The position numbers and the translations under genes were made by a program. From assembly GCA_022925895.1 (NCBI GenBank), contig JAKSYS010000165.1, positions 35,528 to 99,527 on the forward strand: 64,000 bases of DNA, given 5' to 3'. Of the stretch, positions 35,118-55,035 are shown in pieces (the stretch's first letter is position 1; each line of letters starts with the position of its first letter). The notes below the pieces were generated by a model that was given only the letters and a program-made list of their open reading frames with translations, had not been told where the DNA came from and made no database searches. Source of the DNA: Fragilaria crotonensis. Taxonomy: Eukaryota; Bacillariophyta; Fragilariophyceae; Fragilariales; Fragilariaceae.

Positions 35118-36106
35118 TCCTCACACAATTTGTCGGAAGTAAAACAGCTTCATCACGATCGCTTATCAAGTAACCCAATCAAAGCGTCTCATTCAGTCAC
35201 GAATAACAACATGGCTCGTGATTCAACTCGAAAAGGCCGGTATTTCGATAGAACGAGAATTCTGAACCGACGACAGCAGACCAAAACACTGACAAGAAAA
35301 GCGATACACCGCGTACAGTCTACGGTGCCCTGGTACTTGGAGCACAGATCCAACACAGCCACTAAATACTTTATGCCAGTAGAGACGAAGATAGTAGATA
35401 CAAACACGCGTGCAACGACGATGACGATCTCCTTACCGCATGAAGGAGGCAAGAACAGCCAATGATGCGCAAGTCAGGGTCTGCATGACCGCACCGTCTA
35501 CAGAACAAATGGCTTCCCGTTGGAGAGTTGGACATCATCTCGATCGCTCACCACACCGACGAGAGCCTTTCCCTCAACAAGATGTGGTCTTTCGTGATTT
35601 TGTCAGCATCCGTTTTCTTCCCCTGCCAGCGGGCTTGCAATATACACAATAGGTGTTGCCACAGGCTTCTACGTCCAGTTGAACAAGAATTATTCCCTAG
35701 ACACTGTATTTTGTCCACGGTACTGATCTGTTTAGTACTCCGACCACGAGGTCGTTTGTTGTACAAAGTACAAGTACCAGAACGAAAGAAATAAAGATTC
35801 GAACACACCATTGATCGGGTAAATGACGGTTTCTGTTTTAAGTGAAGATTGCCGACGTTGTGCTCTACTACCACAACTTCGTTGAACGTGGCAAGTTCTC
35901 AGCGCTTCCATGCTACAAACTGCAAACATAGCATGAGTCCCGAATCCTGACTGTATACATTTTCATTCATACCAGCTGTACGTATGAAGTGACGATATTT
36001 ATGTATCAATGTTTGATAAAAATGATATCAAATATCGAGGATGCATATAGTCAACATTCGTAGCCAGTTGCAGGTTGCGACTGACTATGGTCTTCTACAT
36101 GCAACC
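35118..36106. other. intergenic region
   Basis: Short ORFs on both strands at 35130-35930 have no domain. A GTAC-rich patch lies at about 35690-35780. It presumably holds divergent promoters for the GAF-like gene and the oxygenase-like gene. Confidence 0.4.
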
Positions 36107-37187
36107 ATGACGTCCATGTCGCGGCACCGCTCAATCCTTCGCCTAGTATTACTTGGAGCCTTGTTGTTGCTTATGACGAGCCTCCCCATCACTGCTTTTG
36201 CACCTCGATTCCTACCAAGCAGCGGCAACACCAGGAAGTTGTCTGGAATGTTGGCGGTTGGACCTAGAAGTGAAGGTAGCGGTCGACGTCATATGGCTCC
36301 GACCCGACAACCACGACGCCGTCAGGAAGAAGTTGCCGTGGAAGAATTCGACGGAAGAGCGCTGACAGCAGCACAAATACCAAACGAAGGAGCTCCGCCA
36401 TTGGATTTGAAGAATTCAAATCTACTCTGCATGAGTGATGATAATTTGAACATTAAGGAATCAAGTTCAACGTTGGTCCGACAACCATGCTTTGAATTCA
36501 AGTCCTTGGACGAAATACATGTTGGCTTGTCGGCAATTTTCAATTCAAGCGCTGGTTTTCGTAATGCGCTTCGTCTTGCTATTCGCCAGGATATATTCGA
36601 CTCGACGCCAGCCTACGCTACATTGTCCGCCAAGGCAGCATCCATACTATTGCTCCCAGATTCATCCTTGCAGGGTTCATGGAGGAGGTCTTCATCCAAT
36701 AGCCATGATTCGACAAAAAAACGATAGAATGATGCGATTGACCAAGGTATTGCAGGAAGCATTTGGTGACAGTGCCCCGACGGGCGACGAACTCCTGCAC
36801 AAGATTGGTGCTCTTTGCGGAAGCCAACCGTCCACACATTTCATCGATATTGTTGGCGTCCAAGATCGCAAACTGTCACACTCATGGCACCTGGATACAG
36901 GCTTGTCACCCGAACATAGCAAGACTGTCCTATGGGGCTTCCCGGCAGACGATAACTACAGCGGATGTGGTGTCTTTTCTCATGTGGTGCCCTTGCTATA
37001 TGAATGTCATGCTCCTGAGGGACATGCAAGGATGGAACCTATTCTGTTTCAAGGGGCAATTGATGAACAATTCATCATTCGTCCTTCCTATTCAGCAGGA
37101 AGGGAGCTGCTTATCTACCGAGATATTGATGTGTTGCATTCGAGCCCCGATGTGGCATACCGTTCAAGTGTAATGCGGTTTATGTAA
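36107..37187 (+). CDS. plastid-targeted 2OG-Fe(II) oxygenase-like protein (apparent frameshift)
   Basis: The ATG at 36107 starts a strong signal peptide that ends ITAFAPRF, the diatom plastid-entry motif, followed by a basic transit-like stretch. The first frame stops at 36727 after an A7 run at about 36716. The conserved-looking body continues in another frame to 37187: [37 protein letters not shown] and DIDVLHSSPDVAYRSSVMR. The W-H-x-D ... H-x(8)-R spacing is that of phytanoyl-CoA/2OG-oxygenase cores, which use Fe(II). The assignment is tentative. The last ~75 codons are duplicated at 41868-42090. The frameshift may be an assembly error in the A run. Confidence 0.55.
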
Positions 37188-37291
37188 TTTTAGGCTACCG
37201 ATAGTAGATGTTACTTATACAACCGTTCTTCAAGGCTGTCGACCGCGAATAGATATGTAGTTAAGAAGATTCTTGTGGTACGAACAAACAT

Positions 37292-38559
37292 TTATTCGTA
37301 TTTGAAGGAAGGTTCTCCTCCAGAGATGTTCATTGCCCCGACAATATTGCACAATTCTGCCATGCGTTTCGCGTAGCCACATTCTGTTGAGATAAACGGG
37401 CAGACATTCGTGTGAGCTATTGGTGATGTCCAGTTTTGAATCAGGTTGATTAATGCAACACATAATCTTGAGACTTACCGTTGTCGTACTGAGGAACGCG
37501 AGGACGAGAGGTTTCGTGAAGAGTGGTGAGCGAGTGAAGTAGTGAGAGGTACGCTGCATTCCTAGTAACACATAACATTCACGTGAAAATGAATCTTCAG
37601 TAACGTACCCATGCATAGATCTTGACCATCGTTCCATCGATAACTTGAGTGCTCAAGGCATCAATGATAGAAGAACGAGTGTCGTTTGTGTAGTCAGTGG
37701 AGACAAGTGGCTTGGTCTCGTATCCGAGAATGCCCTTGAGGGGTCCGCTTTCAGAGGCCGCCTTGAGAGCCGCATTGACCTCATCCACGGTGACTGGACG
37801 ATTGACTTCGAAGACGCAGTCCGTCAAACTACCGTTGGTAAGCGGGACACGTACCGCCAAACCATTGAGCTTGCCCTTGAGTTCAGGATAAATCTCCACG
37901 ATGGCAGTCGCAGAACCAGTGCTGGTGGGACAAAGGTTTACCATGCCACTTCTGGCGCGACGGAGGTCATCCTTCTTTGTGTTTGGCATGTCTACGAGAG
38001 TCTGAGTTCCTGTGACGTTGTGAATGGTTGTGATGCAACCGTGCTTGATGCCAAAGTTTTCCTGAATGACCTTGACGACGGGGGCCAAACAGTTGGTGGT
38101 ACATGACGCGTTTGTAACAAGAGTCGTCTCGCTGGAGAGCTTATTATGATTGCACCCGAGAACGACGTTGAGAGCTCCAGCCTCCTTGACTGGAGCGGAA
38201 ACAACGACTTGTTTGATGCCTGAGACATCAAAATAGGGTTGAAGCTTCTTGATGCTCAGGAAGACTCCCGTGCATTCCATGACCATCTCAACTCCCATTG
38301 CCTTGAAGTCGATCTGCGTGTAATCTTTTTCGCGGGAGAATGTGACAATCTTGCCGTCCACGGTGAAGGACGATTCCTGGGTCTCAACTTCCTTATCCCA
38401 TGTGCCATGGACGGAGTCATACTTGATCAAGTAGGATGCAGATTCGCAACTGCAGAGGTCATTGACGTGAACGATGTCGAGCTCAGGATCATCCCAAGCA
38501 TAACGAAACATCAAACGACCAATACGGCCGAAGCCATTCACAGCGCACTTGATAGGCAT
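37292..38559 (-). CDS. ArsJ-associated type glyceraldehyde-3-phosphate dehydrogenase
   Basis: Three exons: 38559-37609, a 10-nt microexon 37498-37489 (encoding YDN plus one base), and 37383-37292; 350 residues. The NAD-binding start is GFGRIGRLMFR. The catalytic Cys153 lies in ASCTTNC and His180 in TTIHNVTGTQ. Several segments depart from glycolytic GAPDH and match the arsenate-resistance form: LRRARSGMVNLCPTSTGSA, LTNGSLTDCVFEVNRPVT and YDNECGYAKRM. In bacteria that enzyme uses arsenate in place of phosphate to form unstable 1-arseno-3-phosphoglycerate, which ArsJ exports. An ArsJ-type permease gene starts 503 bp away on the other strand. No signal or transit peptide, so it is probably cytosolic. 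An ordinary cytosolic GAPDH role cannot be excluded from sequence alone. Confidence 0.88.
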
Positions 38560-39062
38560 ACTATGTGTATGGAGGAGACTGACACCGGGTAGATTTCTTT
38601 TTTTTTTGTGAAAGAGATTTGTGTGAGACCTGACGACAGAATTTGGAGACGTAGCGGGATGCAGTAGAGCTTATAGTAGACTTGTACCGAAACTGAGAAT
38701 ATGAGGCTGAAAGTGGTGCTTCGGGTTTGCGAATCTCACAAGATTTGCTCTATGGATTTGATTACCAAATAAATAGCTCAAGGACAACTGTCGAACGCTT
38801 TGGCCTGACACGGATACGAACGTGTCGGCGACGCCGCCACACCCATAATCACGAAACATTTCCATCGACATCGAAAAGGCCTCATTGACTTGTCCATTGT
38901 CTGTTGTGAATCCCAACGTCCTCACATTGGGCTTGTGCTTCAAGTTGCCAATTGCAGACTCACATAACATAACTCACGGAAAGCGAAACTCTTTACATTC
39001 CATTCTCCAGACGCAGTGACTTAGTCATAATTCGACAGGCTTCAAGCACCGAATCCCGGACC
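38560..39062. promoter_or_regulatory. shared divergent upstream region of GAPDH and ArsJ copy 1
   Basis: The 503-bp head-to-head spacer must hold both promoters. A T10 run lies just upstream of the GAPDH start (about 38597-38607). From about 38911 to the ArsJ start the sequence is similar to the 5' flank of ArsJ copy 2 (about 49485-49594), so the ArsJ-proximal part was duplicated with the gene. I see no defined operator or arsenic-responsive site. Confidence 0.5.
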
Positions 39063-40905
39063 ATGTCACGCCTTCACCAAGACCCTCCAGCCGCTCAAGG
39101 CGGATACTTGGAGGGCACCAAAAGTGGTGTCGAAGAACGCAATGAAGAAATCGAGCTAGAAAATTCGAAAAAGGGGGGAGGTTTCATGTCAGCAGCTCGG
39201 AGTAAGGCCTTACGCCCATTCGTCATTATCAGTTCGTCGTATCTCTTGTTTACCATCACAGACGGGGCAATTCGGATGATTGTTCTGCTGCATGCCTACA
39301 ACAAGTCATTCTCAGCGCTTGAAGTTTCCATCATGTTCAGTCTCTACGAACTTGCCGGCGTACTCACAAATCTGGCGGCGGGACTAATGGGAGCGAAATG
39401 GGGGATCAAGTTTACTCTCATCATCGGACTCTCGTTGCAGTTACTGAGTTACGGCCTGATGTTCGGATGGCAAGATAGCTGGACCAAATCCGAAGCAATT
39501 ATTTACGTTACAGGTAAGTTCACAAGTTCAGTTCCTGCCATGAACGTAAACATGCTCAAATACAAAAACGTCGAGGCTGTATTGGTCGTCTCATCGAGCA
39601 TCCGTTTGTGACACAGTGGCACAAATGTTTGCAGGCATCGCCAAGGATTTAACGAAATTGGGTGGAAAGACAGTTACGAAGCTGGTCACACCGGATGAGA
39701 AAGAAACTCAGCTTTTCAAACTTGTTTCCTTCATTACTGGATGGAAGAACTCTCTCAAGGGTGTCGGATACTTTGCTGGAGCCGCCTTGCTTCAGGTGTC
39801 CTACGTGCTTGCCCTCAGTGTCATGATGGCGTTAGTCCTCATTGCCATGCCATGGGCTATCTTTGGTCTTGACAGAAGTCTTGGGACGGCAAAGAAGAAG
39901 AACGCTACATGGAAAGATGCCTTCAAGATGGATAACCAAAAGCTCAATCTTCTCTCTGCCGCTCGATTGTTCTTGTTCGCCTCAAGAGATTTCTGGTTTG
40001 AAGTACCACTCCCGTTCTTTCTTCGCGCTCCAGCCTGCGAAGGTCTTGGAACTGAGACATGTTTCCAATCGTCAGATTGCAGTCAGGGGGCAATATGTGG
40101 ATCATCTGGATACTGCGAGAATATCAATCCTGGCGGGGGTTGCGGTGGCCTTGGTCTCGAGCGAGTCGTCGTCGGCGCTATCCTTGGAGGATACATCATC
40201 CTGTACGGCCAAGTTCAATCACTCACTCCACAGCTTGTTACCGGTCCATTGCGGCAATCGTAAGTTGCCAAACACTTGGATTCATGTTTCGTTGAAGTTA
40301 CAAGAGCTCACATCGTATTTGAAAGCCCACCCAACAAATTGACTGAAGTCTTCTGGGGTTTGATCAATTGTGTCCCAACGCTCATCATGGCAGTGGCCAT
40401 GAAATTGGCGCCGTCCTTTGTAAACGCCGATGCAGACGAAATGACAATTTGGTTCGCTGTCAATGTCGTTGCCTTCGCTGTTATCTTCGCTATCAACTCC
40501 TCGATCCACTCATTCTTGGTAGTTAACTACGCCGCAAAGGACAAGGTCGCCGTCAGCGTTGGCTTTTACTACATGAGCAATGCTTGTGGTCGCTTGATGG
40601 GGACAATCGGTAGTGGGGTCCTCTACACCTTCATTGGCGAAAATATAGGAAGTTTAGCTGGTACCGATGCGGTAGCGGGCCTAGCAGCGTGCTTCCTGGC
40701 TGGTACCATAAGTTCGCTGATTGCGGCCGTCATTACCATCATGATTGACGATCAAGAAGCAGGACTCAAATGCGGACCATGTCTCACTCTGGTACCGGCG
40801 GCCTCCTCTGACGATGCCGCTGATGACGAGGAGGAAGTCAAGGTGGAAGTCAAAGTGGAAGTCAAGCAGGAAGTCGAGGAGGAATACGAACTTGCATATG
40901 CCTAA
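39063..40905 (+). CDS. arsJ: ArsJ-type organoarsenical efflux permease, copy 1 (major facilitator superfamily)
   Basis: Three exons (39063-39513, 39617-40259, 40305-40905) give 564 residues. Family signatures in order: LFTITDGAIRMIVLLH, SLYELAGVLTNLAAG, AQMFAGIAKDLTKLGGK, KNSLKGVGYFAGAALL and LLSAARLFLFASRDFWF. These are the conserved ArsJ stretches of bacterial permeases that export 1-arseno-3-phosphoglycerate. Unlike the short bacterial loop, a Cys-rich insert (six Cys in about 40 residues, TETCFQSSDCSQGAICGSS region) follows the sixth or seventh helix. The C-terminal tail has CGPC and a run of alternating Glu/Val/Lys. No signal peptide; about 12 helices. It is head to head with GAPDH, which supports a joint arsenate-resistance role. 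A second copy is at 49595-51392. Confidence 0.88.
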
Positions 40906-41090
40906 GGGTTGAGGATGGAGATGTCCGAGCGCCTCAACGCAGTTATCGCTAGGAGTGTCCTGGGCGCAGGTCGAGTGTTTATCTTGGTGCCTTGTTTGGC
41001 TTGATCGAAAAGTCTGCCCTAGATTTCATTCTCGATCTTCATTTCAAGAGAATCAAGGACAGAGGATATCAGATCTACAAACGGATTATT

Positions 41091-41867
41091 TTACTTCTTC
41101 TCGTCATCCTTCTTCTTCTCCTCATCCGATTTCTCGGTGAAGTCTGCATCAACAGTGGAGTCGTCCTTCTTCTCCTCTTCGCTAGCTTGTTGCTTGCTGT
41201 GGATCGCCTGTCCAATCTTTTGACTTGCTTGGCTTAAAGCTTCTTTCTTAGCAATGATAGCGTCAGAGTCGTCCCCATCCTTGACCTCCTTTGCCTCGGC
41301 AATAGCCTTCTCAACTTCGGTCTTGGTGTCTGTGTCAATTTTGTCCGCATTGTCTGTCAGACTCTTTTCCGTGCTATAGATCAACGAGTCGATTTCGTTC
41401 TTTGCCTCAAATGGCTGGCGTCTCTTCGCATTAACTTCGGCGTTGGCCTCGGCATCTCGAACCATCTTTTCAATGTCAGCTTCAGACAGACCTCCGTTTG
41501 ATTGAATGATAATGTTCTGTTCCTTGCCAGTTCCCTTGTCCTTGGCTCTAACGTTCAAGATACCGTCAGCATCAATGTCGAATGACACCTCAATCTGTGG
41601 AACACCTCTTGGCGCCGGCGGAATTCCAACCACGTCGAATTGTCCAAGCGATTTGTTGTCGGCGGCCATTTCACGTTCTCCTTGAATAACCTTAATTTGC
41701 ACTTGTGGCTGGTTGTCTGCTGCGGTAGAGAATGTTTGCTGCTTCTTGGTTGGAATTGTCGTGTTTCTAGGAATCAACTTAGTCATGACACCACCGAGAG
41801 TTTCAATTCCAAGCGACAGAGGAGTGACATCCAAAAGGAGAATGTCCTTGACATCCCCTTTCTTCTC
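41091..41867 (-). pseudogene. truncated mitochondrial Hsp70 (C-terminal part only)
   Basis: Encodes the substrate-binding half of Hsp70 from [17 protein letters not shown] to the stop, nearly the same as 51819-52590, but has no ATPase domain and no start. It carries changes at otherwise constant sites relative to the full gene (for example NVRAKDK for NVSAKDK and RRQPFEAKN for RRQTIEAKN), fitting loss of constraint. The open frame runs on through the breakpoint into unrelated sequence up to 41945. Confidence 0.9.
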
Positions 41868-42150
41868 ATTTGGTGCCCTTACTATATGAATGCCACGCGC
41901 CTGAGGGACATGCAAGAATGGAACCCATTTTGTTTCAAGGGGCAATTGATGAACAATTCATCATTCGTCCTTCCTATTCAGCAGGAAGGGAGCTGCTTAT
42001 CTACCGAGATATTGATGTGTTGCATTCAAGCCCAGATGTGGCATACCGTACAAGTGTAATGCGTGCGTTTTATGCAAATGTAGGCTACCGGTAGTAGATG
42101 TTACTTATACAACCGTTCTTCAAGGCTAAACGACAGCGAACAGATATGTA
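41868..42150 (+). pseudogene. truncated copy of the 3' end of the oxygenase-like gene
   Basis: Near-identical to 36980-37262: it reads [20 protein letters not shown] through DVLHSSPDVAYR and continues into the 3' flank (the shared gatgttacttatacaaccg stretch). It starts abruptly at the junction with the Hsp70 fragment. No promoter or N-terminus, so not functional. Confidence 0.88.
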
Positions 42151-42387
42151 ATTTATGGTCCTTATCTCGTCTAGAGTAGAACGTAGTTTTGCACAAGAGG
42201 TGGTTTGAAAAGTGGCGCTGAGAAAATCAAAGATAAAGATTCCGTACAAGTTAATTTCCGCAACAAAAGTGCTGAAAAGTGCTGACGTCAAATTGGTGAA
42301 ACCTAATCGGACCCTATGAGGATTCACAAGTTTTATTGCTTAGCCCCTTTTACTACCGTGTTAGTTACTCTATATCGTTACCGGTAA

Positions 42388-42423
42388 GGGGCGTTCTTAA
42401 CTCAGCAATTTTCGGGTAGGATG
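42388..42423 (+). repeat. left terminal inverted repeat of the Harbinger-type interval
   Basis: Starts GGGGCGTTCTTAACTCAG, preceded by TAA. Inverted partner at 49396-49431. The adjoining bases to about 42570 also contain the reverse of this terminus and subterminal GTAGGATG words, so the left end alone could fold back. Confidence 0.85.
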
Positions 42424-42504
42424 GTACTTCTAGTAGGAGGGTAGGATGATTTTTCGGTTATATTCGTTTTTTAACATTATTCGACCGGGAAAAACCGGAA
42501 AAAT

Positions 42505-43082
42505 TTGAGCGTTATAATGGTGTTATCAACGCCTGTGCCTCCTACCATCCTACCAGCTTCCTACCCGAAAAGACGAGTGAGCACCGAACGAGACGACGAC
42601 GATCATGAAGCAAGAAGCAATACAACGACGGTCAGTGGATCGCTGTCCGCAACGAGGTCCGAGGCCGGAACGAAGCGGAAGCGACGAAAGTCTGGAGATG
42701 ATTCTATGATGTCGTCGGCACCAAAAACAGCAGCACCTTCAGTCGGCGAACAACAAGAGAAGAAACTGAAGGTTTTAGAAGATCATCTGAAGGCGATGGA
42801 GGACATTGAGAGAGAGAGAGATTGTCGCATCGAACAAAACGAGATAAACTAGCGAACCACCTGTCTCTGACTGCAGAGCTGAAGACGATTGAAGAGATGT
42901 TAAGTATGAAGCGAACCGAAGTCCAGCAGTATGACACCTCCGACCCAGAATGGGAACTCTTGGATAGACAACTTAAGAAGTTGCGAAAGCGGCGAGATCG
43001 GCTGATGGAATTGGTTTGCGACTCTGATGGTGAAGAAGCGGATGATGAACAACCACTGACGATGCATACGGAATTGGTCTAG
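42505..43082 (+). CDS. Harbinger accessory ORF: basic coiled-coil protein (frameshifted at a GA repeat)
   Basis: The ATG at 42505 lies in the left terminal region of the element. The N-terminal part is Ser/Arg/Lys-rich with a nuclear-type KRKRRKSGDD. The frame stops at 42850, but a second frame (about 42822-43082) continues a coiled coil (LTAELKTIEEML, LDRQLKKLRKRRDRLMELV) with an acidic end. The change falls at a GAGAGAGA run near 42806-42822, a likely slippage site. PIF/Harbinger elements usually carry a second DNA-binding protein; this one fits by position, but I see no Myb/SANT triad. Confidence 0.55.
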
Positions 43083-43164
43083 TAACAACAAAATATACTA
43101 CTCCTCGCAACTGCTTTAACTACTATACGCTGCAACTACAAGCTAGTATTTGTTGTTGCGGAGT

Positions 43165-44544
43165 TCACATCAAGCCAATCTCGTGTAACTCGTACCTCCT
43201 CCTCTCTAAGTTGGCATTCGGTCGTCTCATTCCCCGTTGTTCGACACGTTGCAGGATCATATCCCTTGTCATGCTTGTTCCCGAGATGGGCGGACGATAT
43301 GTTTCTACCGTTGGGAGAAACGGCCACCCAAGTGGTGCATTGCGTGGTGGTGGCATTCTTTGAAGACGACTGATAACGGCACTGTTGTCGTAGTATGGTT
43401 CCCCAGAATGCTGATCATTCACGTCAATGCAGTAGTTGTGTAGGCGCGCGCATGCCATAAGAATGTCGCTAGAACGAGCAAGCGAAGTCTGGAGTGGTGC
43501 ATTCAATACCCGCCACTTATTGGTCAAGAGACCAAAAGCCATCTCAATTCTGATTCGAAGTTGGCTCAAAAAGAAGTTGTATGCATCCTTTATTGGGTCA
43601 TTGCGATGTCCACCAGTAAATGGCGTCAACAGGGACTCCCCAACTGAATAAGCCGCGTCTCCAATCAAGTAAAAACCTGGAGGTAAGTTCCGGACGTAGT
43701 CGTAAAGAGGTGTTCGCTCAAATGCAACTTGATCGCCACATTTTCCTGGTGCAACAACACCAAAAAAAAGGAATCGAGACTGCCTGTCGCAAACTGCTTG
43801 CACATTTAGGCCATACATACCATAGTGACCCGACAAGAAAGCACCCGGGTTGTTGTTGGAATCCTTCATAGTTGGTCTTCTTGTTACTGCAAGAAACCCA
43901 TCAATGCAACCAATACAACCTCGAATCAATTGCGATGTGCTGTGCTCCTCAAACCCCCTTGCCACAGCAGCCATTTCTTCCAGTGTCTGAGGAAGCTTGA
44001 TTCTGTCAATTAAATCTGGGCAGGAATTCACAGCGTCGATGAAAATATCACGAGTTCGATAGACCGAAGGCAAGCTTAAGCCATACGCATTCTTAAGGTC
44101 AAGGCACTTGCCCCCACTTAGGTAACGTATTCCAACTGCCATCACCAGCTCAGGGTAAATCGGTTCTGGGACTGGAGATCTGTGTGCTTGAAGGTAGATG
44201 CTTTCTCCAAGCAGTTCCCTAAGGTTTCGGAAGGCATCAACAGACATTCTGTAGGTGCGTCCGAACAAGTTCTCGTGTACAAGAACTGCAACATGAGACT
44301 CCCAGCAAAGACGAAGATGGATCCATTTTGGTTCTCTGGTACTGACGCGCGGCTGTTGTATAGTTTCGTCGTCGTCTTCATCCTGCACATCTTTGTCGTT
44401 AAGGAAGTAGAGGGAAAGTACTGAATTTTCACCGATGCCAAAGAGCCTGATTGCATGACGATTAGAGCGGCCATCTTCATCTTCCAACGAGGAATCATCA
44501 TCAGGCTCGTTCCTAACAGAACGAACGCTTCGCAAGTTTCGCAA
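43165..44544 (-). CDS. PIF/Harbinger DDE transposase
   Basis: Single open frame of 459 residues. The helical N-terminal region has FRNLRELLGES and YPELVMAVGIRYLSGG. The DDE_4-type nuclease core has GCIGCIDGFLAV (first Asp), FYLIGDAAYSVGESLLTPF (second Asp) and RIRIEMAFGLLTNKWRVL (Glu), with ACARLHNYCID after it. All three catalytic acids are present, so this copy could be active. The acidic N-terminal 60 residues are poorly conserved in type. It is convergent with the accessory ORF, the common layout of these elements. Confidence 0.9.
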   Translation of the reverse strand: MRNLRSVRSVRNEPDDDSSLEDEDGRSNRHAIRLFGIGENSVLSLYFLNDKDVQDEDDDETIQQPRVSTREPKWIHLRLCWESHVAVLVHENLFGRTYRMSVDAFRNLRELLGESIYLQAHRSPVPEPIYPELVMAVGIRYLSGGKCLDLKNAYGLSLPSVYRTRDIFIDAVNSCPDLIDRIKLPQTLEEMAAVARGFEEHSTSQLIRGCIGCIDGFLAVTRRPTMKDSNNNPGAFLSGHYGMYGLNVQAVCDRQSRFLFFGVVAPGKCGDQVAFERTPLYDYVRNLPPGFYLIGDAAYSVGESLLTPFTGGHRNDPIKDAYNFFLSQLRIRIEMAFGLLTNKWRVLNAPLQTSLARSSDILMACARLHNYCIDVNDQHSGEPYYDNSAVISRLQRMPPPRNAPLGWPFLPTVETYRPPISGTSMTRDMILQRVEQRGMRRPNANLERRRYELHEIGLM

Positions 44545-45133
44545 GCTTCACAAGGATTTGGGCCGGAAAAAATATTCTTCTTTTTCATGACACGTCACTG
44601 ACAACGCATACCACAAGTCTCCGTTCTTATCAACCATTTTTGTTTTGCAAGGTTTGCTAATTCGCAAATTTCCCTAATTAATTCCGCGTGGAAGTTCCAT
44701 ACGACGAGTATCTTGTTGAAATAATTGTTTGACGATAATTGTTCTGTGGATGGCACCTTTTTCTTCCACCTGCTGCTGTGTCGGTGCTTCCATTGCTTCA
44801 CAATTATTCACAATTAATACCCTTACAACACAGGCTGGTTGCAATTGAGAATAACTTATTTGTTGCGCCGCTGGAGCAGTCATTATGATGACAACGACAG
44901 ATGTGACTGAGTTCTACAAATTTTAAGCAGCAAAAGTGAAACAATGACATTCGGGAACAACATCATAGGAGTAGAATAACAGCTGTTTATCGCATTAATT
45001 GTTTGCCGTGTACGTGGGCAATCGAGTGTTGATTGGATGTTGACGTACCTGTTCGTAATGATGAATAAGATAACATGACTGAGTACAATCGCTCATGAAC
45101 AGTACAAAAAGAAAAATGCTGGCATTAGGAACA

Positions 45134-45622
45134 TCATCGGTCCTTACCAGTAAAGAATTGTATGTCGGAGTAAGAACCGCCAGCCAAAAATTGCAAGCAA
45201 GCATAGAGACAAAGCTCAGGATTTATTTGACCACCTCGTCTTCTTCTTGCCATCTCTGCATCAACCACTAGCAGCGGTCGGATATGGGACAACAGTTTCG
45301 TGAACAAATCAAGTGACATTCAAATAAGCCTCTTGAAATCAGCCCTTCTGACAAATTGCTGAATGAAGTGGTCCCATTGAAGACGCTCATTGAACAAAGC
45401 CGGATTGCGTGGAATTCTCCTTGACCCCTGTCGCCGATTGAGTTCCTTCAGCAACCATGATGCAAGTACCCCAGGAATGTCTGCATTAAATTGCACGGCA
45501 GATGAGAGATACAGTAGTTGTTCCTCCTCCTCCTCCTCATCATCATCATCACTGCTATCATTTCGTAGTACTAGCACCTCCCCCTCATTGTCGTTCATGA
45601 TGTTGTCGTCAAGATTTAGCAT
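45134..45622 (-). pseudogene. remnant of a second Harbinger-like transposase (N-terminal part)
   Basis: An acidic start (a run of Asp and Glu), then QWDHFIQQFVRRADFKRLI, an in-frame TGA at 45320-45322, and MSLDLFTKLLSHIRPLL, PELCLYACLQFLAGGSYSDI. The second part has the same plan as FRNLRELL...PELVMAVGIRYLSGG of the intact transposase. The nuclease core is missing. It points to an older or nested element in the same place. Confidence 0.65.
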
Positions 45623-45862
45623 GTTGTTGTGACGAGCGATGAAATATGGGCGATCTGCAGAACGATCTGCGCTAATCGCTTAGCCTTCATTTAATCGTAG
45701 TACTGGAGTACGAGTTAGCAGTAAGATGTACCTTTGTTACGTTTTGCTCTCGTGCGAGTCATGTAAGGACTACTGTACATAGGAAAACCTACGTATTGCG
45801 TTACTTTCGTCCGAATCATAGTGGGAGTACGTAGGAAAATCTACGTATGCGCTTCGATTATC

Positions 45863-45949
45863 TTGCGCTTCACAAAATGGTGCTCATAACCCGCACAAAC
45901 GACAAACCTCGGTTTGTGCGGGTTATGAGCACCATTTTGTGAAGCGCAA
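45863..45949. repeat. perfect 38-bp inverted repeat (hairpin) with 11-bp loop
   Basis: The left arm 45863-45900 and right arm 45912-45949 are exact reverse complements (the arm begins TTGCGCTTCACAAAATGG), separated by 11 bases. On either strand it can form a 38-bp stem. No coding sequence covers it. It could be the fused ends of a foldback element or the residue of a TIR pair. Confidence 0.9.
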
Positions 45950-46194
45950 CTGTGAATTTTGGAGGAAAGTGCTTCACAAGGTTTTTGGTTTTTTTTGTGA
46001 CGTCAAAACACGGATTTGCGAAACGCTTGCTCTTCGCAAGGATTTTCGCATGATAGGAACGAGCCTCAGCAACATTGTTCATCATGAATCAGCGTCAAAG
46101 TGCTGGGAGGTGGGGTAAACCGTGCTATTGCATGCACACGCGTGCATTTATGTGAAAAACATGTATGAAAATAAGTCTCCCCGCTTTTAAAAGC

Positions 46195-46730
46195 CTCTCT
46201 CGATTTACGCTGGAACCTCTACTACCGGTAGTCTAGTAGAGAGAATATTTCTGGAGGATTTGCACTACATACATACTCGTCCTTCTAATTTCGAATTCCA
46301 AAAAATCCTCTTTCCTGGGTTCGGTTTGGGGTGTGCGCGGTGTTGCGGACGTCGTCGTACTGTACAACGCAGTACTGTACTACAGATACATACGACTATA
46401 CTCGTACTTGACATTTATTTTGTACGAAAGCTCAACTCTAGTATCGTACAACATGCTACCGCTAACGCATACTCGAGTACTCGAGTAGTTGGACTTGTAC
46501 TGGAGTACTACTCCATTCACGTTGCTACGGTACAAGTATGTAGTACTGGTGTACTGTAATCCTCGAGAACGTGGAAGGTCCAGTATCCGAGTACAACCCT
46601 GGTTGTACTCTGAGTTAACGAGTCCTTGTACTATTGTGCGTTGGGTGGTGAATAAAAGGCGGGTACCAGGTACTTGTACTCCTACTGTACAAGTTACAAG
46701 TCCTCCAGTACCTGGTACAAGTACCAGGCC
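46195..46730. other. GTAC-rich intergenic tract
   Basis: Dense in GTAC, AGTACT, ACTCGTAC and CAAGTAC words, with ACCGGT in the middle. Overlapping ORFs on both strands (46260-46872) follow from the biased composition (Tyr/Thr/Val/Ser-rich) and are not supported as genes. Confidence 0.6.
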
Positions 46731-47065
46731 GTGGATCAAAATGCTGCTTCACGTCGTACAACACTCTGTGGATTGTGGATGTGCATCGAATCTTTGTACA
46801 ATACTACCTGTACTTGTACGAGTGTATGTCATACTTGAATTGTACCGACAAAGAGGGTCACATGACACGTGACGAGTTAAAGCAGTTGACGTGTGTCTGA
46901 CGATTCCCACAGTAAAATGAAAGTTAGACTTTTCCATCTTGTCTTCGGATCTCTCTATCCCGGCACCAAGTACTCGTACTACTAGTAGTGGATTGAGATC
47001 GTTGGCTGCTTTGATCTTCTCTGTTCGCGCTTTGTGTTTTGAGTTTTGACGTAGCCAGTAGTAGT

Positions 47066-47538
47066 CAGGGTTGGCAGGCAGGTGTTTTTTGCGGAGTGGT
47101 TTTTTGGTTTTTATTCAAAAAACCACCTCGTTTTGGGTGGCAGTGGTTTTTTATTTTCGAGCTAAAAAGGTGTTTTTTCAAAGAGTTCGTACGTGTTTAT
47201 GCAGTACTGTATACTGCATGCCACTGTATACTTGTTACTGTATCACGTAACGATACTACAGTACACAGTTTCAAACTTCTCCACATTCAGATATGCAGTT
47301 GCAAACTACAAAGAAGGTTGAATAAGGATGTAAATATGTTAAAGAACAATTGCTTTGGTGTTATTGCAAGCATCCAATGTAGAATATTGGGTCCAACATC
47401 AAATAAAATGAATGTAGAATTAAAGACCTTACTGTGTAAAAAACACTAGTGTTTTTTGGGTGTTTTTTAGGTGTTTTTTGGTGTTTTTTAAAAAACCACC
47501 TCGGCGAAAATCGGGACCGGTGGTTTTTCACAACCCTG
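47066..47538. mobile_element. hAT-like miniature element (MITE), 473 bp
   Basis: Starts CAGGGTTG and ends CAACCCTG, the terminal motif of hAT elements. It is flanked on both sides by the same 8 bp, gtagtagt (47058-47065 and 47539-47546), the right length for hAT target duplication. Beyond the termini both ends carry GGTGGTTTTTT-type subterminal repeats. It has no transposase, so would need one in trans. The flank is a GTA repeat, so the duplication is slightly less compelling than a complex sequence would be. Confidence 0.75.
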
Positions 47539-47747
47539 GTAGTAGTACATACTCAAAGTACGGGCATACTTTTGGGGGGAGGCAACGTTCTTTATCTCAA
47601 AATGAGTGTTTTTATTCAGTTGCTCAATCATGACAATATGTGTAAGTAAATGTGCAGAGTCAAGGATTGTCCATTGGCTACATATGGATGTGTACCTAAC
47701 GATAATTCTAATTTAAATGAATGCATACAGTATACATGCGAGGAGCA

Positions 47748-47962
47748 AAAGCATTAGAATTCTCGAGCATGCAATGGAATGCTCGAGAATGCAATCGCAT
47801 TCTCGAGCATGCTATGGAATGCATTCGAGCCGGCCAGACGTCGTTCACTATGAAACTATAACTACTAAATACGTTTTGATAAAAAAATCGCATTCTATGG
47901 CATGCTCGAGCATTCCATTGCACGCTCGAGCATTCTATGGCATGCTCGAGACAATTCGAATG
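47748..47962. repeat. palindromic foldback cluster of CTCGAGCATGC-type units
   Basis: At least seven short units built on GCATTCTCGAGCATGC and ATGGAATGC, arranged so that 47748-47830 is approximately the reverse complement of 47888-47962, with an AT-rich centre. It may be a foldback MITE. Reading frames through it are made only of the repeat. Confidence 0.7.
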
Positions 47963-48229
47963 CACTGAAATTTTATACCAGTGCCAATCCTTGTAAACAT
48001 ACATATGCATATATAAAGTATAAAGATGCTACCAGGTACAAATATATCCTGATGGTCATCAATGAGAATGAACTGATACCAATGGACGACGTCATCAGAA
48101 TATCATATATCAAGCTATGAATAAGAGTATAAAAGCAACCCATCTAATTGATGAACCGCACAGTCGGCATTTCGCATTCCACAGCACGCAAGACGGGAGG
48201 GAATCGTCAGACGCACGTCAGCTGCTGTA

Positions 48230-49000
48230 ACTTGTCCCATGTCCCGTGTCCCGTGACCCTTTTCATGTGTACTCTATCGGTAGTAAGTTACAAGTACTTG
48301 TACCAGTACTCGTAGAACGAGATGTTCATTTTCACAGCGTGTACTCGTACACTCCGATAGAGGCACTTGTTCTTTGTACTGCCTGGCACCATGGTTCTGG
48401 AGTTCGACTACTGTAGTACTGTAGTACTTGTACTGGATTACCCTTATTGACCATCCACCGTACTACAGTACCAGGTACTACCGGTAGTAATGTACTGGTA
48501 CCAGGAACTCGTTTACTCGTACGTACTACAGCCTACACAGTACAACCCATGATTGTACTACTACATCGTACAAGTACTGCATACCTACTGGAGCTTCCAG
48601 CCACGTTCTCCAGTACAAGTAGTCGGAGTACTCCAGTACCCCGAGGACTCCAGTATTTGTACTTAAGTATTAAAGAAACGCGAGACTCGAAAGGAGTGCA
48701 AGTGCTGCAGTAGCAACTTTGTAATTTTTCCCCTTGCTAGCTAGACTACTGGTAATCTTAGCAGGTGCGTATTGCTGCCTGCTCACAGAATGCGGTGGCT
48801 TAAAGTACTATGCCTGTAGTGCTATCGTCAACAGCCAAGGTCAATTATGGAGTAGTAGTAAAGTACAACGCTGTACAGTACGACGTGGTCCGCAGTACGC
48901 AGAACCCGCAACACCGCAAATTACGAGAGTGACCAGTGACCACAGTTCAGTCGTACGGAATATTCTACTACTAGCTAGTAGAGTACTGGAGTACAGGTCA
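48230..49000. other. GTAC-rich tract inside the Harbinger interval
   Basis: Repeated GTACTAC, CCAGTAC, ACAAGTAC and GTACTCGTAC words with ACCGGTAG; no gene supported. ORFs here (48447-48713, 48734-49213) are compositional. Confidence 0.55.
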
Positions 49001-49395
49001 AGCATAAATCAAAAAGCTTTTGAAAGTGGTGAATTTTTTAGATGTTCTTCATATGAACGCACATGTTCATGTGTGAATGCTATGGCACGGCTTACCCCAC
49101 CTCCCTGCTTCAAAATTAGAAGCACCAAAATTTGTAGTTCGAAGTGCTGTGCTGCGTGGAAGCACCCACTTTTCAGACTATTATTCGCGCCTTTTAACAT
49201 ACGTGATTATTAGAACGAAACGCATATTCTTCTATGTGTTTGATAGATTTTTAATTAGGTAGAAACAAGGTCGTTTTCCTAAGCAAATGAAGTTGGATCA
49301 AAGGAGGGAAACTGAGTTGAGAACGGAGAGGTAGGATGAAATTTTGAGCGTTATAATGGTGTTATCAACTCCTTTGCCTCCTACCATCCTACCAG

Positions 49396-49431
49396 CATCC
49401 TACCCGAAAATTGCTGAGTTAAGAACGCGCC
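49396..49431 (-). repeat. right terminal inverted repeat of the Harbinger-type interval
   Basis: Reads as GGCGCGTTCTTAACTCAG on the minus strand, followed by TAA on the plus strand. The 70 bp inside it (about 49342-49410) also repeat, in direct orientation, the sequence at 42505-42570 that encodes the start of the accessory ORF. Confidence 0.85.
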
Positions 49432-49484
49432 TAAGAATTCCCCATCGCGTACGATTGAAACTTGAAACGATACTACCGGTAACA

Positions 49485-52400
49485 TCCCAATGTCCTCATT
49501 GGGCTTATACTTCAAGTTGACAATTACAGACTCACGTAACGCAAGGAAAGCGAAAGTCATAATTCGACAGGCTTCAAGCACCGAATCCCGGACCATGTCA
49601 CGCCTTCACCAAGACCCTCCAGCCGCTCAAGGCGGATACTTGGAGGGCACCAAAAGTGGTGTCGAAGAACGAAATGAAGAAAGCGAGCCAGAAAATTCGA
49701 AAAAAGGGGGAGGTTTCATGTCAGCAGCTCGGAGTAAGGCGTTACGCCCGTTTGTCATTATCAGTTCGTTACATCTCTTATTTACCATTACAGACGGGGC
49801 GATTCGGATGATTGTTCTGCTGCATGCCTACAACAAGTCATTCTCAGCCCTTGAATGCTCCATCATGTTCAGTCTCTACGAACTTGCCGGGGTATTCACA
49901 AATCTGGCGGCGGGACTAATGGGGGCGAAATGGGGGATCAAGTTTACACTCATCATCGGACTCTCGTTGCAGTTACTGAGTTACGGCCTGATGTTCGGAT
50001 GGCAAGATAGCTGGACCAAACCCGAAGCAACTACTTATGTTACAGGTAAGTTCAGTACCTGCCATGAACGTATACATTCTCATTGCAAAATCTCTGGCAC
50101 TCAATTGGTCGCCTCATTGATCATCCACTTGTGACGCAGTGGCACAAATGTTTGCAGGCATCGCCAAGGATTTAACGAAATTAGGCGGAAAGACCGTTAC
50201 GAAGCTGGTCACACCGGATGAGAAAGAAACTCAGCTTTTCAAAGTTGTTTCCTTCATTACAGGATGGAAGAATTCTCTGAAGGGTGTTGGGTACTTTGCC
50301 GGAGCCGCACTGCTTCAGGTGTCCTACGACCTTGCCCTAAGCGTCATGATGGGGTTGGTCCTCCTTGCCATGCCATGGGCTATCTTCGGTCTCGATAGCA
50401 GTCTTGGGACGGCTAAGAAGAAGAACACAACATGGAAAGATGCCTTCAAAATGGATAACGAAAAGCTCAATCTTCTCTCTGCCGCTCGATTGTTCTTGTT
50501 TGCCTCAAGAGACTTTTGGTTTGAAGTCCCCCTCCCGTACTTTCTCCGCTCCCCAGCCTGTGAAGGGTTTGGAACCGAGACATGTTACCAGTCGCTAGAT
50601 TGCAGCAAGGGGGCAATGTGCGGATCATCTGGATACTGCGAGAATATCAATCCTGGTGGCGGATGCGGTGGCCTTGGTCTGGAAGGAGTCGTCGTCGGCG
50701 CTGTCCTTGGAGGATACATCATCCTGTACGGCCAAGTTCAATCCCTCACTCCACAGCTTGTTACCGGTCCGTTGCGGCAATCGTAAGTCGCCAAAGACTT
50801 GATCTGACGTATCGTTTAAGTCGCAAGAGCTCACGTCGCCTTTGAAAGCCCACCCAACAAGTTGACTGAAGTTTTCTGGGGTTTGATCAATTGCGTCCCG
50901 ACGCTCATTATGGCAATGGCCATGATGTTGGCGCCGTCCTTTGTAAATGCCGATCAAGGACAAATGACTATTTGGTTCGCTGTCAATGTAGTTGCCTTCG
51001 CTGTTATCTTCGCTATCAACTCCTCGATCCACTCATTCTTGGAAGTCAAATACGCCGCAAAGGACAAGGTCGCCGTCAGCGTTGGCTTTTACTCTAAGAG
51101 CAGTGCTTGTGGTCGCTTGATGGGGACAATCGGTAGTGGGGTCCTCTACACCTTCATTGGCGAAAATATAGGAAATTTAGCTGGTAGCGATGCGGTAGGG
51201 GGCCTAGCAGCGTGCTTCCTGGCTGGTACGATAAGTTCACTCATTGCGGCCGTCATTACCATCATGATTGACGATCAGGAAGCAGGACTCAAATGCGGAC
51301 CATGTCTCACTCTGGTACCGGCGGCCTCCTATGTCGATTCCGCTGATGATGAGGAGGTAGTCGAGGAGGAACACGAAGTTGCATTTGCGTAAGGGTTGAG
51401 GATGGAGATGTCCGAGCGCCTGAACGCAGTCGTCGCTAGGAGAGATCTGGTCGTATGTATTCCTTCCATTCCAAGACTAAAGTTCTGCGATGATTTCAAT
51501 GGCAATGTCATTGAACCGTACCTTTTCCAATCCTTTTCGCAAGGCACCCCACAAGTACACGTCCATATGCCTCTCGTCCACTCGATTTCTCCTCATCTTG
51601 CCAGGACTAGACTGCTACTGGGGCAGAGGTGGCATAGTTACGAAGAAGGAACTACTCGTGTGAGAAAGGTGGATGCCCTTCATATGGAGGATCGCAGGTC
51701 GTGGATTTATTTTCCTACCTTATTTGGCTTGATCGAAAAGACTGACCTAGATTTCATTCTCGATCGTCATGTCAAGAGAATTAAGGACAGAGGATATCAG
51801 ATCTACAAACGGATTATTTTACTTCTTCTCGTCGTCCTTCTTCTTCTCTTCATCCGATTTCTCGGTGAAGTCTGCATCAACAGTGGAGTCGTCCTTCTTC
51901 TCCTCTTCGCTAGCTTGTTGCTTGCTGTAGATCGCCTGTCCAATCTTTTGACTTGCTTGGCTTAAAGCTTCTTTCTTAGCAATGATAGCGTCAGAGTCGT
52001 CCCCATCCTTGACCTCCTTTGCCTCGGCAATAGCCTTCTCAACTTCGGTCTTGGTGTCTGCGTCAATTTTGTCCGCATTGTCTGTCAGACTCTTTTCCGT
52101 GCTGTAGATCAACGAGTCGATTTCGTTCTTTGCCTCAATTGTCTGGCGTCTCTTCGCATCAGCTTCAGCGTTGGCCTCGGCATCACGAACCATCTTTTCA
52201 ATGTCAGCTTCAGACAAACCTCCGCTTGATTGAATGATAATGTTCTGTTCCTTGCCAGTTCCCTTGTCCTTGGCGCTAACGTTCAAGATACCGTCAGCAT
52301 CAATGTCGAATGACACCTCAATCTGTGGAACACCTCTTGGCGCCGGCGGAATTCCAACCAAGTCGAATTGTCCAAGAGATTTATTGTCGGCGGCCATTTC

Positions 52401-52590
52401 ACGTTCTCCTTGAATAACCTTAATTTGCACTTGTGGCTGGTTGTCTGCTGCGGTAGAGAATGTTTGCTGCTTCTTGGTTGGAATTGTCGTGTTTCTAGGA
52501 ATCAACTTAGTCATGACACCACCGAGAGTTTCAATTCCAAGCGACAGAGGGGTAACATCCAAAAGGAGAATGTCCTTGACATCCCCCTTC
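49485..52590. repeat. right copy of the ArsJ-Hsp70 segmental duplication
   Basis: Same orientation and order as 38911-41867. Here the segment continues into a complete Hsp70 gene. On the left it is cut short, 50 bp from the Harbinger right end. Confidence 0.85.
49595..51392 (+). CDS. arsJ: ArsJ-type organoarsenical efflux permease, copy 2
   Basis: Three exons (49595-50045, 50140-50782, 50828-51392), 552 residues. Exons 1 and 2 have exactly the lengths and phases of copy 1. All ArsJ blocks are kept (TITDGAIRMIVLLH, AGIAKDLTKLGGK, KNSLKGVGYFAG, ARLFLFASRDFWF), as are the six-Cys insert and the CGPC tail. The tail is 12 residues shorter, lacking most of the Lys/Val/Glu repeat. There are scattered substitutions, such as CYQSLDCSKGAMC for CFQSSDCSQGAIC in the loop, but no stop or frameshift, so the copy looks functional. 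Its partner GAPDH is missing. Only about 110 bp of the upstream region is shared with copy 1, so regulation may differ. Confidence 0.87.
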
Positions 52591-54154
52591 AACACTCCAC
52601 CCTGAATGGCAGCACCCATCGCAACGACTTCGTCAGGGTTGACACCTCGGGAAGGCTTCTTGCCGAAAAATTGTTCCACGGTGTCTTGCACCTTGGGCAT
52701 TCGAGTCATACCTCCGACGAGGATGACGTCGTGGATTTCAGACTTGCTAATATCAGCATCCTTCATGCATTTCTGTACAACCAAATTGTTAGCTGGTCTA
52801 ATGGAGGACGCGACACACGCAATCCTTGAAAACATCATCACAGACACTCACCTTGCAAGGATCAATCGTCTTGTCAATCAAATTCTGAACCATCGCTTCG
52901 AACTGGGACTTGGAAATCTTTACGGACATGTGTTTAGGTCCAGTAGCATCGGCGGTGATGAAAGGAAGTGACACATCAGTCTGTGCGAGACCATCGAGTT
53001 CACGCTTTGCCTTCTCGGCCGCCTCACGCAGACGCTGCATGGCAAGATTGTCGCTCTTCAAATCAATGCCACTCTCCTTCTTGAAATCCGCCAACAAGTG
53101 CGCAAGTAGCTTCTCGTCGAAATCTTCACCTCCCAACATGGTGTCACCATTCGTTGCCTTGACCTCGAAGACACCGCCGGAAATCTCCAAAATGGAGACA
53201 TCAAAAGTACCTCCTCCGAGGTCAAAGACAACAATGGTCTTCCCGTCTTCCTTGTCCATACCGTACGCAAGAGCAGCAGCAGTTGGCTCGTTGATGATAC
53301 GAAGAACGTCGAGTCCAGCGATCTTTCCAGCATCCTTGGTTGCCTGGCGCTGGCTGTCGTTAAAGTAGGCTGGGACAGTGATGACAGCCTTTGTGACATC
53401 ACGTCCGAGGAATCCTTCAGCCGTCTCCTTCATCTTTCCGAGAACCATCGATCCGATTTGAGATGGACTGTATTTGGTACCTCTTGCTTCGACCCATGCA
53501 TCTGAATTGTTGTCGCTCTTGACGATTTTGTAAGGAACCAGCCCTGAAATTGTCTTGACTTCTTTGTCGTTGTATGAGCGACCAATCAAACGCTTGACAG
53601 CAAACATGGTATTTTCTGGGTTTGTGACAGCCTGACGACGAGCAGCCATTCCGACAAGTCGAGTTCCATCCTCAGTGAATGCAACCACAGACGGTGTAGT
53701 ACGAGACCCCTCCGAGTTTTCAATCACACGTGCATTCCGACCTTCCTGTGGAAAAATTGGGATTCCGATCGGTTAGATGAATTCATCTTGGTTGGGACAA
53801 CGATTCTGGAGCGAAACGAGTGACAGCGAGTATTGCTAAGGCCACAATGGACTCGCGCTTGAGTTGATTGACGGCAATTGAAAAGGAACTCGACTGATGC
53901 ATACAAACGTGCAATTTTGATGATGGCCAACGAAACTATGCGTCACCCACGTAGCGTTCGTACGAAACGAACGGTGAAGAAAATCTTACCATGACGGCCA
54001 CACATGAGTTGGTGGTTCCCAAATCAATCCCAATCACATCTCCAACATCTGTACTCTTGTATCTTCTGCTCACATCAAGGAACGAGGTACCAACGGATCC
54101 TTTCGAAGCCTTGAATGAAGTTAACCCACGACGCACACTCAATTGCAGCGCCAT
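51819..54154 (-). CDS. mitochondrial Hsp70 (DnaK-type chaperone)
   Basis: Three exons (54154-53990, 53745-52852, 52772-51819), 670 residues. The N-terminus is Arg/Ser-rich without acids ([19 protein letters not shown]), a mitochondrial presequence, followed by [18 protein letters not shown] (phosphate loop). [47 protein letters not shown] and [14 protein letters not shown] complete the ATPase domain; [17 protein letters not shown] starts the substrate-binding domain. The Lys/Glu/Asp-rich end lacks EEVD, consistent with an organelle form. It folds imported proteins and powers import. The gene is tail to tail with ArsJ2 across a 426-bp spacer in which I see nothing else. Confidence 0.95.
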
Positions 54155-55035
54155 TTTTGCACTGTGTATCTTTTTACTTTGTGAGCGGCGGCGACGGTTT
54201 GCGGCCTCGAACTTGCCTCCATCGAACGTTCCAAGAAAATCGGTGGTGGTCTGTGTGAGGTCGGTGATTATCGCTCTGCTGACGTCAACATCGACACATT
54301 CGATAGAGTTGATGATCGCGGAGGTTCGACAAGGATTTCCTTTTACGTGATCGATTAGGATTTTCAAATTCAAAGAGATTCCGCACATCAGGATTCCAAA
54401 TTCCAAGTCTGTATGGGGAGATGGCAGATGGGCAGGCGCATGGACTGGCGAGATGGCAGCCACAGCAGACAGCAGCCACCAGCGATAATTGAGTAATTGA
54501 GACGATGAGACGGACAGCCGGACAGCCGGACAGCACAACAAAGCACACAATCTGAAATCCTCCGAGTAGACTCTACGACGTAGTACAATTGTAGAGGAAA
54601 AGAGGAAAATAGCCCCTAGATGACTTCAGAGTTGGAATTCAGTAGCGTCTCGACGGAGAATAGTTTAGGTGTATGGAGCATGGAGTGGGTATGGTTCATC
54701 ACTATTGAAGTCAAGAGGTGAGTGTTTCAGTTCAGAGCCCTGAAGCGATGGGTCGTTCCACAGCCTTGTGCATCTAAGGATCTCGCCAATCATGACGCTT
54801 CTCGATACGTAATAGTAAAAAGTCATGGATGCCAATCTGCAGGATTCACTCCAAGGCCAAATCCTTGGTATAAAAACTAGATCATCGAATGTTAAGCAAT
54901 AGCGTTCTATATCTATTTCAATTTACCGTTGCACGACAATAACCGCTTCCCAGAAGCGCTTCCCTGTCCTCTCAGAGATCTCTCCACCGATGCAAAGTTT
55001 TCATTTAGCGTTAGGTTGTATCCGATATAAGGCAT
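54155..55035. other. intergenic region
   Basis: Upstream of mitochondrial Hsp70 and downstream of the Cys-rich gene. Short ORFs at 54285-54588 on the minus strand are upstream leader frames without a domain. A repeated ACAGCCGG unit occurs near 54515. No gene supported. Confidence 0.4.

Follow-up and report, generated by a model that had tools for sequence, protein, structure and literature searches.

A probable arsenate-detoxification pair, ArsJ-associated GAPDH and an ArsJ homologue, in a diatom-like nuclear genome, with a second ArsJ copy that has no GAPDH partner

The window analysed here is a stretch of 64,000 nucleotides from a 99.5-kb contig (C75) of the Fragilaria crotonensis assembly (62.1 Mb, 881 contigs). 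It carries a gene for a glyceraldehyde-3-phosphate dehydrogenase (GAPDH) of the ArsJ-associated kind and, adjoining it, a gene for a transporter of the major facilitator superfamily (MFS) that is homologous to ArsJ. We consider it probable that these two nuclear genes of a diatom-like alga work together to detoxify arsenate by exporting 1-arseno-3-phosphoglycerate, as homologues of the GAPDH-ArsJ pair found in bacterial ars operons. The GAPDH would place arsenate instead of phosphate on glyceraldehyde-3-phosphate, and the labile 1-arseno-3-phosphoglycerate would be exported from the cytosol by ArsJ ahead of its hydrolysis; the substrate, the direction of transport, the membrane and the induction of the pair by arsenate are what we infer for this system. 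Since arsenate mimics phosphate, the locus is relevant to the cycling of arsenic and to growth in waters where phosphate is scarce.

The two genes stand head to head, exactly as an earlier sequence-only reading of positions 37292-40905 had placed them. On the minus strand, GAPDH has its ATG at 38559 and the last base of its stop codon at 37292; on the plus strand, the corresponding positions of the MFS gene are 39063 and 40905. The gap from ATG to ATG is 503 bp, a single region that may drive both genes. Each gene has two GT-AG introns, four together, with splice sites predicted from the sequence. The description of a linked, divergent pair thus holds for the adjacency; overlooked at that stage were a second ArsJ gene, the duplication that gave rise to it, and the missing second GAPDH (see below).

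Assignment of the GAPDH to the ArsJ-associated kind, distinct from the other GAPDHs of the cell, is supported by profile scores, by a tree and by individual residues. Its top NCBIfam family is ArsJ-associated GAPDH (NF033735; 482.1 bits, cut-off 450). This model gives 580.7 and 556.3 bits with two bacterial ars-GAPDHs and 382.8, below the cut-off, with a canonical bacterial GAPDH; pieces of three of the four paralogues in the same genome reach 299.6, 297.2 and 224.5 bits, and these three score best with the ordinary GAPDH model. The tree contained 70 rows, namely the window protein, its four paralogues, 48 of the 82 available ars-GAPDHs, and 17 other bacterial GAPDH and E4PD proteins. In it the window GAPDH is sister to all 48 bacterial ars-GAPDHs, with support of 100/100 and an end branch of 0.97, and the four other GAPDHs of the genome cluster with canonical ones. 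The window gene is the only ars-type member among five type-I GAPDH genes found in the genome. An alignment of 79 ars-GAPDHs (the set excludes L023, L074 and L089, which have no GAPDH frame of at least 200 aa, and three loci with cut GAPDHs) has 98 conserved columns, and at 95 of them the window protein has the usual residue; it has the ars-type residue at 10 of the 11 columns that discriminate ars-GAPDHs from 19 canonical rows. Both the Cys and the His that we take to be catalytic are retained. Within the tree set, the protein most similar to the window GAPDH comes from a Leptolyngbya plasmid (60% identity).

A glycolytic identity of this GAPDH, which the sequence-only reading had named as one outcome that would overturn it, is rejected on the strength of the profile scores, the tree and the discriminating residues: the tree places the protein with 48 of 48 ars-GAPDHs. 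The ArsJ-associated signatures that had been claimed are likewise borne out by the score and the fully supported clade. One of them, YDNECGYA, is present in the spliced form only, where Y-D-N and the first nucleotide of the codon for E come from a 10-nt microexon flanked by introns of 120 and 95 nt. No presequence was seen in the protein, which is probably cytosolic. Its basal position in the tree, on a long branch, is uncertain, and because of this no donor of the GAPDH can be named.

The MFS protein of the pair, ArsJ copy 1, matches a single NCBIfam family at E ≤ 0.001, which is ArsJ (NF033734; 339.9 bits, E 2e-101, profile positions 2-376 of 392); on Pfam MFS_1 it scores 36.4 bits with a cut-off of 33.4. 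We compared it with 86 ArsJ rows, of which 80 are from prokaryote genomes (the best 80 of 585 confirmed ArsJ loci in a genome scan), five from plasmid records and one from a viral contig (L098), with two partial viral ArsJs (L099 and L100) excluded; 52 of the 86 rows were used for the ArsJ tree. Identity of copy 1 to the prokaryotic ArsJs is 32-38%, with short pieces up to 43%. Of the 109 positions that are near-invariant, i.e., at least 95% conserved in the 86 rows, copy 1 keeps 80 and copy 2 keeps 76.

Hydropathy averaged over the 86 aligned rows gives 12 segments with alternating positive charge, loops 2-3, 4-5, 6-7, 8-9 and 10-11 being charged and the remaining loops hardly so; a stricter single-sequence scan gives 8 segments in ArsJ copy 1 and 8 in the protein of locus L013. 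The loop between transmembrane segments TM7 and TM8 consists of two or three residues in all 86 rows, versus about 40 residues with six cysteines in the diatom ArsJs. The charge pattern suggests that this Cys-rich loop lies outside the cytosol, and we infer disulfides within it. No Pfam family matched it above cut-off, the weak matches being squash-inhibitor and Dickkopf-like.

In prokaryotes the two families are strongly linked. A GAPDH frame of at least 200 aa was found in 77 of the best 80 ArsJ loci, always on the same strand and either upstream of ArsJ or fused to it, and in a Filomicrobium metagenome-assembled genome (L063, 1855-4269) GAPDH and ArsJ share one frame of 805 aa, both above cut-off (569.1 and 474.4 bits). 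None of the 77 loci has the two genes in divergent order, as they are in the window. Viral contigs contain three relatives of ArsJ (31-35% identity) and 66 loci with relatives of the GAPDH (34-44%, plus two short pieces at 48 and 50%), and ArsJ relatives occur in 66 plasmid records, all at less than 60% identity. The case for arsenate detoxification is made by the cut-off, tree and residue results for the GAPDH, the ArsJ-only NCBIfam match, the prokaryotic linkage and the one-frame pair, and by the arsenate sensitivity of Chlamydomonas mutants in an ArsJ-like gene and in a neighbouring PGK-like gene (PMC7826186).

As to the earlier claim of acquisition by gene transfer, the trees give both genes bacterial-type kinship and no donor, and do not attribute a transfer to this alga or even to diatoms. 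In trees with 48 ars-GAPDHs and 52 ArsJs neither gene has a close bacterial group from which a donor could be named. The kinship would also suit a direct gain of the pair by diatoms from a bacterium, as opposed to inheritance from an early alga. We regard this origin as rather unlikely, given that neither gene is near any bacterial group in the trees (where the only eukaryotic rows are those of this genome) and that arsJ of Cyanidiales is stated to group with Viridiplantae and eukaryotic lineages (PMC9812998).

The second ArsJ gene lies in what we read as one tandemly duplicated unit, starting in the gene that precedes GAPDH and ending within an HSP70 gene. Three blocks are homologous: 36977-37262 and 41863-42153 (91%), 38910-40966 and 49484-51453 (87%), and 40965-41862 and 51693-52590 (96%). 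Tandem duplication is our reading because the first and third blocks abut at 41862/41863 and because the spacing of the first block, 4886, equals the length of the segment 36977-41862. On this reading the genes flanking the duplication stayed whole, and those meeting at the junction were cut. The direct repeats of about 290 bp were also considered as a mobile element and rejected: a genome repeat search, which skips very common words, found just two copies of 36977-37262, and these fit the limits of a tandemly duplicated unit. A 7.3-kb stretch occupies the expected place of the second GAPDH, and a search for remains of that gene next to ArsJ copy 2 returned chance-level matches only. The 7.3-kb stretch includes a transposase frame (DDE_Tnp_4) that is presumably Harbinger-type. 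The HSP70 pieces 41091-41862 and 51819-52590 (both on the minus strand) differ by a synonymous distance (dS) of 0.07, less than the 0.22 of the ArsJ copies, despite the apparent single duplication; codon bias or gene conversion may account for this.

ArsJ copy 2 has an intact reading frame, and its introns are at the same places as in copy 1. The two copies differ by a nonsynonymous distance (dN) of 0.040 and a dS of 0.219 (NG86), a ratio of about 0.18, which, reasoned without a formal test, looks too low for free drift of one copy since the duplication. Relative to copy 1, and in its numbering, copy 2 carries Y60H, Y447S, M448K and N450S. These four residues are kept in copy 1 and are present in 86, 86, 85 and 86 of the 86 rows, respectively, and the last three changes fall in the GFYYMxN block before TM11; 29 further departures from near-invariant positions are common to both copies. 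At polarisable sites the commoner state is found in copy 1 at 11 and in copy 2 at 5, small numbers that favour copy 1 as the one conserved to partner the GAPDH. Copy 2 could, on another account of its changes, be decaying. A bolder account, quite unlikely in our view, is that the orphaned copy switched its substrate after one GAPDH was lost, the loss of Y60, Y447, M448 and N450 having uncoupled it from the GAPDH product; the alga would then possess two arsenic exporters, the first carrying 1-arseno-3-phosphoglycerate and the second either free arsenate or a different organoarsenical, and the diatom form would be characterised by its Cys-rich outer loop.

Table. Coordinates of the GAPDH-ArsJ pair, the duplicated unit and neighbouring features in the window
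Feature	Position	Strand	Remarks
Gene for ars-type GAPDH, 350 aa	37292..38559	-	Exons 38559-37609, 37488-37479, 37383-37292; splicing read from sequence, profile and tree
Microexon of GAPDH, 10 nt, completing WYDNE	37479..37488	-	TACGACAACG; picked by eye as restoring the conserved motif
Intergenic region, 503 bp, putative shared promoter region	38560..39062		ATG to ATG
Gene for ArsJ homologue copy 1, 557 aa	39063..40905	+	Exons 39063-39513, 39617-40259, 40326-40905; NF033734 profile
Six-cysteine loop TM7-TM8 of ArsJ copy 1, 40 residues, aa 287-326	40024..40143	+	From alignment; coordinates from exon map
Gene for ArsJ homologue copy 2, 545 aa, without GAPDH partner	49595..51392	+	Exons 49595-50045, 50140-50782, 50849-51392; NF033734, 313.8 bits
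3' end of the gene preceding GAPDH	36977..37262	+	Left end of duplicated unit 36977-41862 (4886 bp)
Truncated 3' fragment of HSP70	41091..41862	-	At the duplication junction
Duplicate of 36977-37262 (91%)	41863..42153	+	Opens the second cassette
7.3-kb stretch in place of second GAPDH	42154..49483		
Transposase frame DDE_Tnp_4	43165..44547	-	Inside the 7.3-kb stretch; Pfam
More complete HSP70 gene 3' of ArsJ copy 2	51819..54625	-	Frames 51819-52847 (the only one scanned with Pfam), 52798-53772, 53936-54625; limits are those of the frames

Several observations weigh against export of 1-arseno-3-phosphoglycerate by this pair. The NF033734 equivalog cut-off of 400 bits is missed by both ArsJ copies (339.9 and 313.8), while four bacterial ArsJs score 504.4-584.5; because the score is under this cut-off, we label the window transporter an ArsJ homologue and not a proven equivalog. 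The earlier identification of the MFS protein as ArsJ is accordingly right as to the quoted sequence blocks, which are present, and as to homology; as to equivalence it is not supported by the score. In copy 1, 29 of the 109 near-invariant positions are changed, and the diatom ArsJ branch amounts to 4.5 changes per column, with both copies outside the 52 tree rows; given the missed cut-off, the changed positions and the long branch, the substrate of copy 1 may have shifted. The contig has no PGK match, unlike most green-algal cases. Finally, free arsenate has been argued to be the cargo of ArsJ on the basis of data from Vibrio cholerae (PMC9601151).

This last model is the main rival: ArsJ would export arsenate as such, with the GAPDH serving as a temporary buffer that holds arsenate in the form of 1-arseno-3-phosphoglycerate, and the outcome would still be arsenate resistance. 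In V. cholerae sensitivity was reported to be greater in the arsJ mutant than in the mutant of the GAPDH, with neither extracellular 1-arseno-3-phosphoglycerate nor extra 3-phosphoglycerate detected (PMC9601151). In the window a second ArsJ is retained with no adjacent GAPDH, and its survival fits the free-arsenate model somewhat better. The linkage in 77 of the best 80 prokaryotic loci and the one-frame pair, on the other hand, suggest that the two activities are coupled, although coupling would fit a buffer role too. On balance we judge export of free arsenate unlikely for the window pair. Still less probable is that phosphate or a phosphorylated metabolite of three carbons is what the pair deals with, arsenic not being its main role, for all that the transporter is distant from bacterial ArsJ and that the GAPDH, taken out of context, would be annotated as glycolytic. 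The ars-type residues at 10 of 11 discriminating sites and the conserved linkage are at odds with such a role, as is the arsenate sensitivity of the Chlamydomonas ArsJ-like mutant (PMC7826186).

An origin of the locus in bacterial contamination or in an assembly artefact we can hardly credit. The proteins are of bacterial type, and misjoined haplotypes could mimic a tandem duplication; yet mere haplotypes would hardly look like this, with 4-13% difference between the duplicated blocks and a gene cut on either side of the junction. We reject contamination in view of the four GT-AG introns (on which the sequence-only reading had relied for the same verdict), the eukaryotic neighbours, and the silicon transporters encoded in the assembly; moreover, no ArsJ of more than 38% identity was found among the best 80 of the 585 confirmed prokaryotic matches. 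Among ten neighbouring proteins scanned with Pfam, there were matches to HSP70, a choline transporter, a class I tRNA synthetase and a DDE transposase, and a match to reverse transcriptase under the cut-off. The silicon-transporter family has 19 matches in the assembly, 18 of them above cut-off and some with internal stops; as a control, one of 14 other genomes gave a match, below cut-off. These matches support a diatom genome, and silicon transporters are found in some non-diatom algae too. On another contig (C97, 29749-33762) three silicon-transporter units occupy a single open frame of 1456 aa.

A profile search of the 62.1-Mb genome found four ArsJ matches, which are pieces of two genes, both within the window; the search scores best candidates only and ignores introns, so that weak or split genes may escape it. 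The same intron-blind search gave eight PGK matches on five contigs, none of them on the window's contig, and no ArsB match. ACR3 had three matches, of 26-29.8 bits with a cut-off of 282.8, and ArsM had 16, the best at 167.6 and 156.5 bits and none above the cut-off of 263; the ArsM model gives matches below cut-off in most of the 14 control genomes, and weak ones mean little. The three ACR3-profile matches (26-30 bits) are consecutive on contig C467 (25364-31975) and perhaps represent bile-acid-symporter-like genes. Neither an ars regulator nor an arsenite pump was recognised beside the GAPDH-ArsJ pair. The motif GNATATNC proved uninformative, with nine copies in the window, one of them at 49222 upstream of ArsJ copy 2, and none in the 503-bp gap of the pair (38560-39062). 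The gene preceding GAPDH (36026-37187, plus strand) has no Pfam match; its product has a hydrophobic N-terminus with TAFAP, which we take to resemble the algal plastid-targeting motif, and a pattern HxD...H.

The idea of a eukaryotic ArsJ-GAPDH pair has already been published for green algae; the diatom lineage and the orphaned second ArsJ look new. No report of a diatom ArsJ-GAPDH pair was found in the open-licence PMC literature, judged mostly from search listings, and arsJ is unmentioned in the main text of PMC11370035 and PMC8618186. The ArsJ-GAPDH route of arsenate handling, which bacteria share with green algae and of which some red algae have arsJ only, would extend to a diatom-like genome. 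The locus is also a natural experiment on the disputed cargo of ArsJ, 1-arseno-3-phosphoglycerate or free arsenate: copy 1 retains both the GAPDH and the invariant motif, and copy 2 has neither, yet is intact with a low dN/dS. Its unusual features are the divergent order, the lack of a PGK match on the contig, the Cys-rich loop, and a GAPDH-less ArsJ in which the most conserved motif is altered.

The closest known parallel to the proposed detoxification pair is the ArsJ-GAPDH3-PGK neighbourhood of green algae, in which PGK is present in most cases, not all (Foflonker and Blaby-Haas 2020, PMC7826186). Common to both are nuclear, intron-bearing genes, a bacterial-type ars-GAPDH adjoining an ArsJ-like MFS gene, and a likely role in arsenate detoxification; the window differs in the contig without a PGK match, in the diatom-like genome, and in the duplication of ArsJ with one copy left GAPDH-less. 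In Cyanidiales red algae arsJ is reported to stand by itself, with the gene cluster absent (PMC9812998), so that the likeness is limited to an ArsJ homologue in an alga, and the adjoining GAPDH sets the window pair apart. The var operon of V. cholerae, varG-varH-arsJ, likewise combines a GAPDH with ArsJ in arsenate resistance, a role that for the window is deduced from the genes; it also carries the phosphatase VarH and is argued to export free arsenate (PMC9601151). As for the bacterial ars operon pair, in Pseudomonas aeruginosa the GAPDH makes 1-arseno-3-phosphoglycerate and ArsJ exports it (Chen 2016, as cited in PMC7826186). The window pair departs from it in being divergent, not same-strand, and in bearing introns, and the diatom ArsJ has longer N- and C-termini and the Cys-rich TM7-TM8 loop; shared with the bacterial pair, as known from P. 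aeruginosa and the Leptolyngbya boryana plasmid, are both proteins, their linkage and the family residues of the GAPDH.

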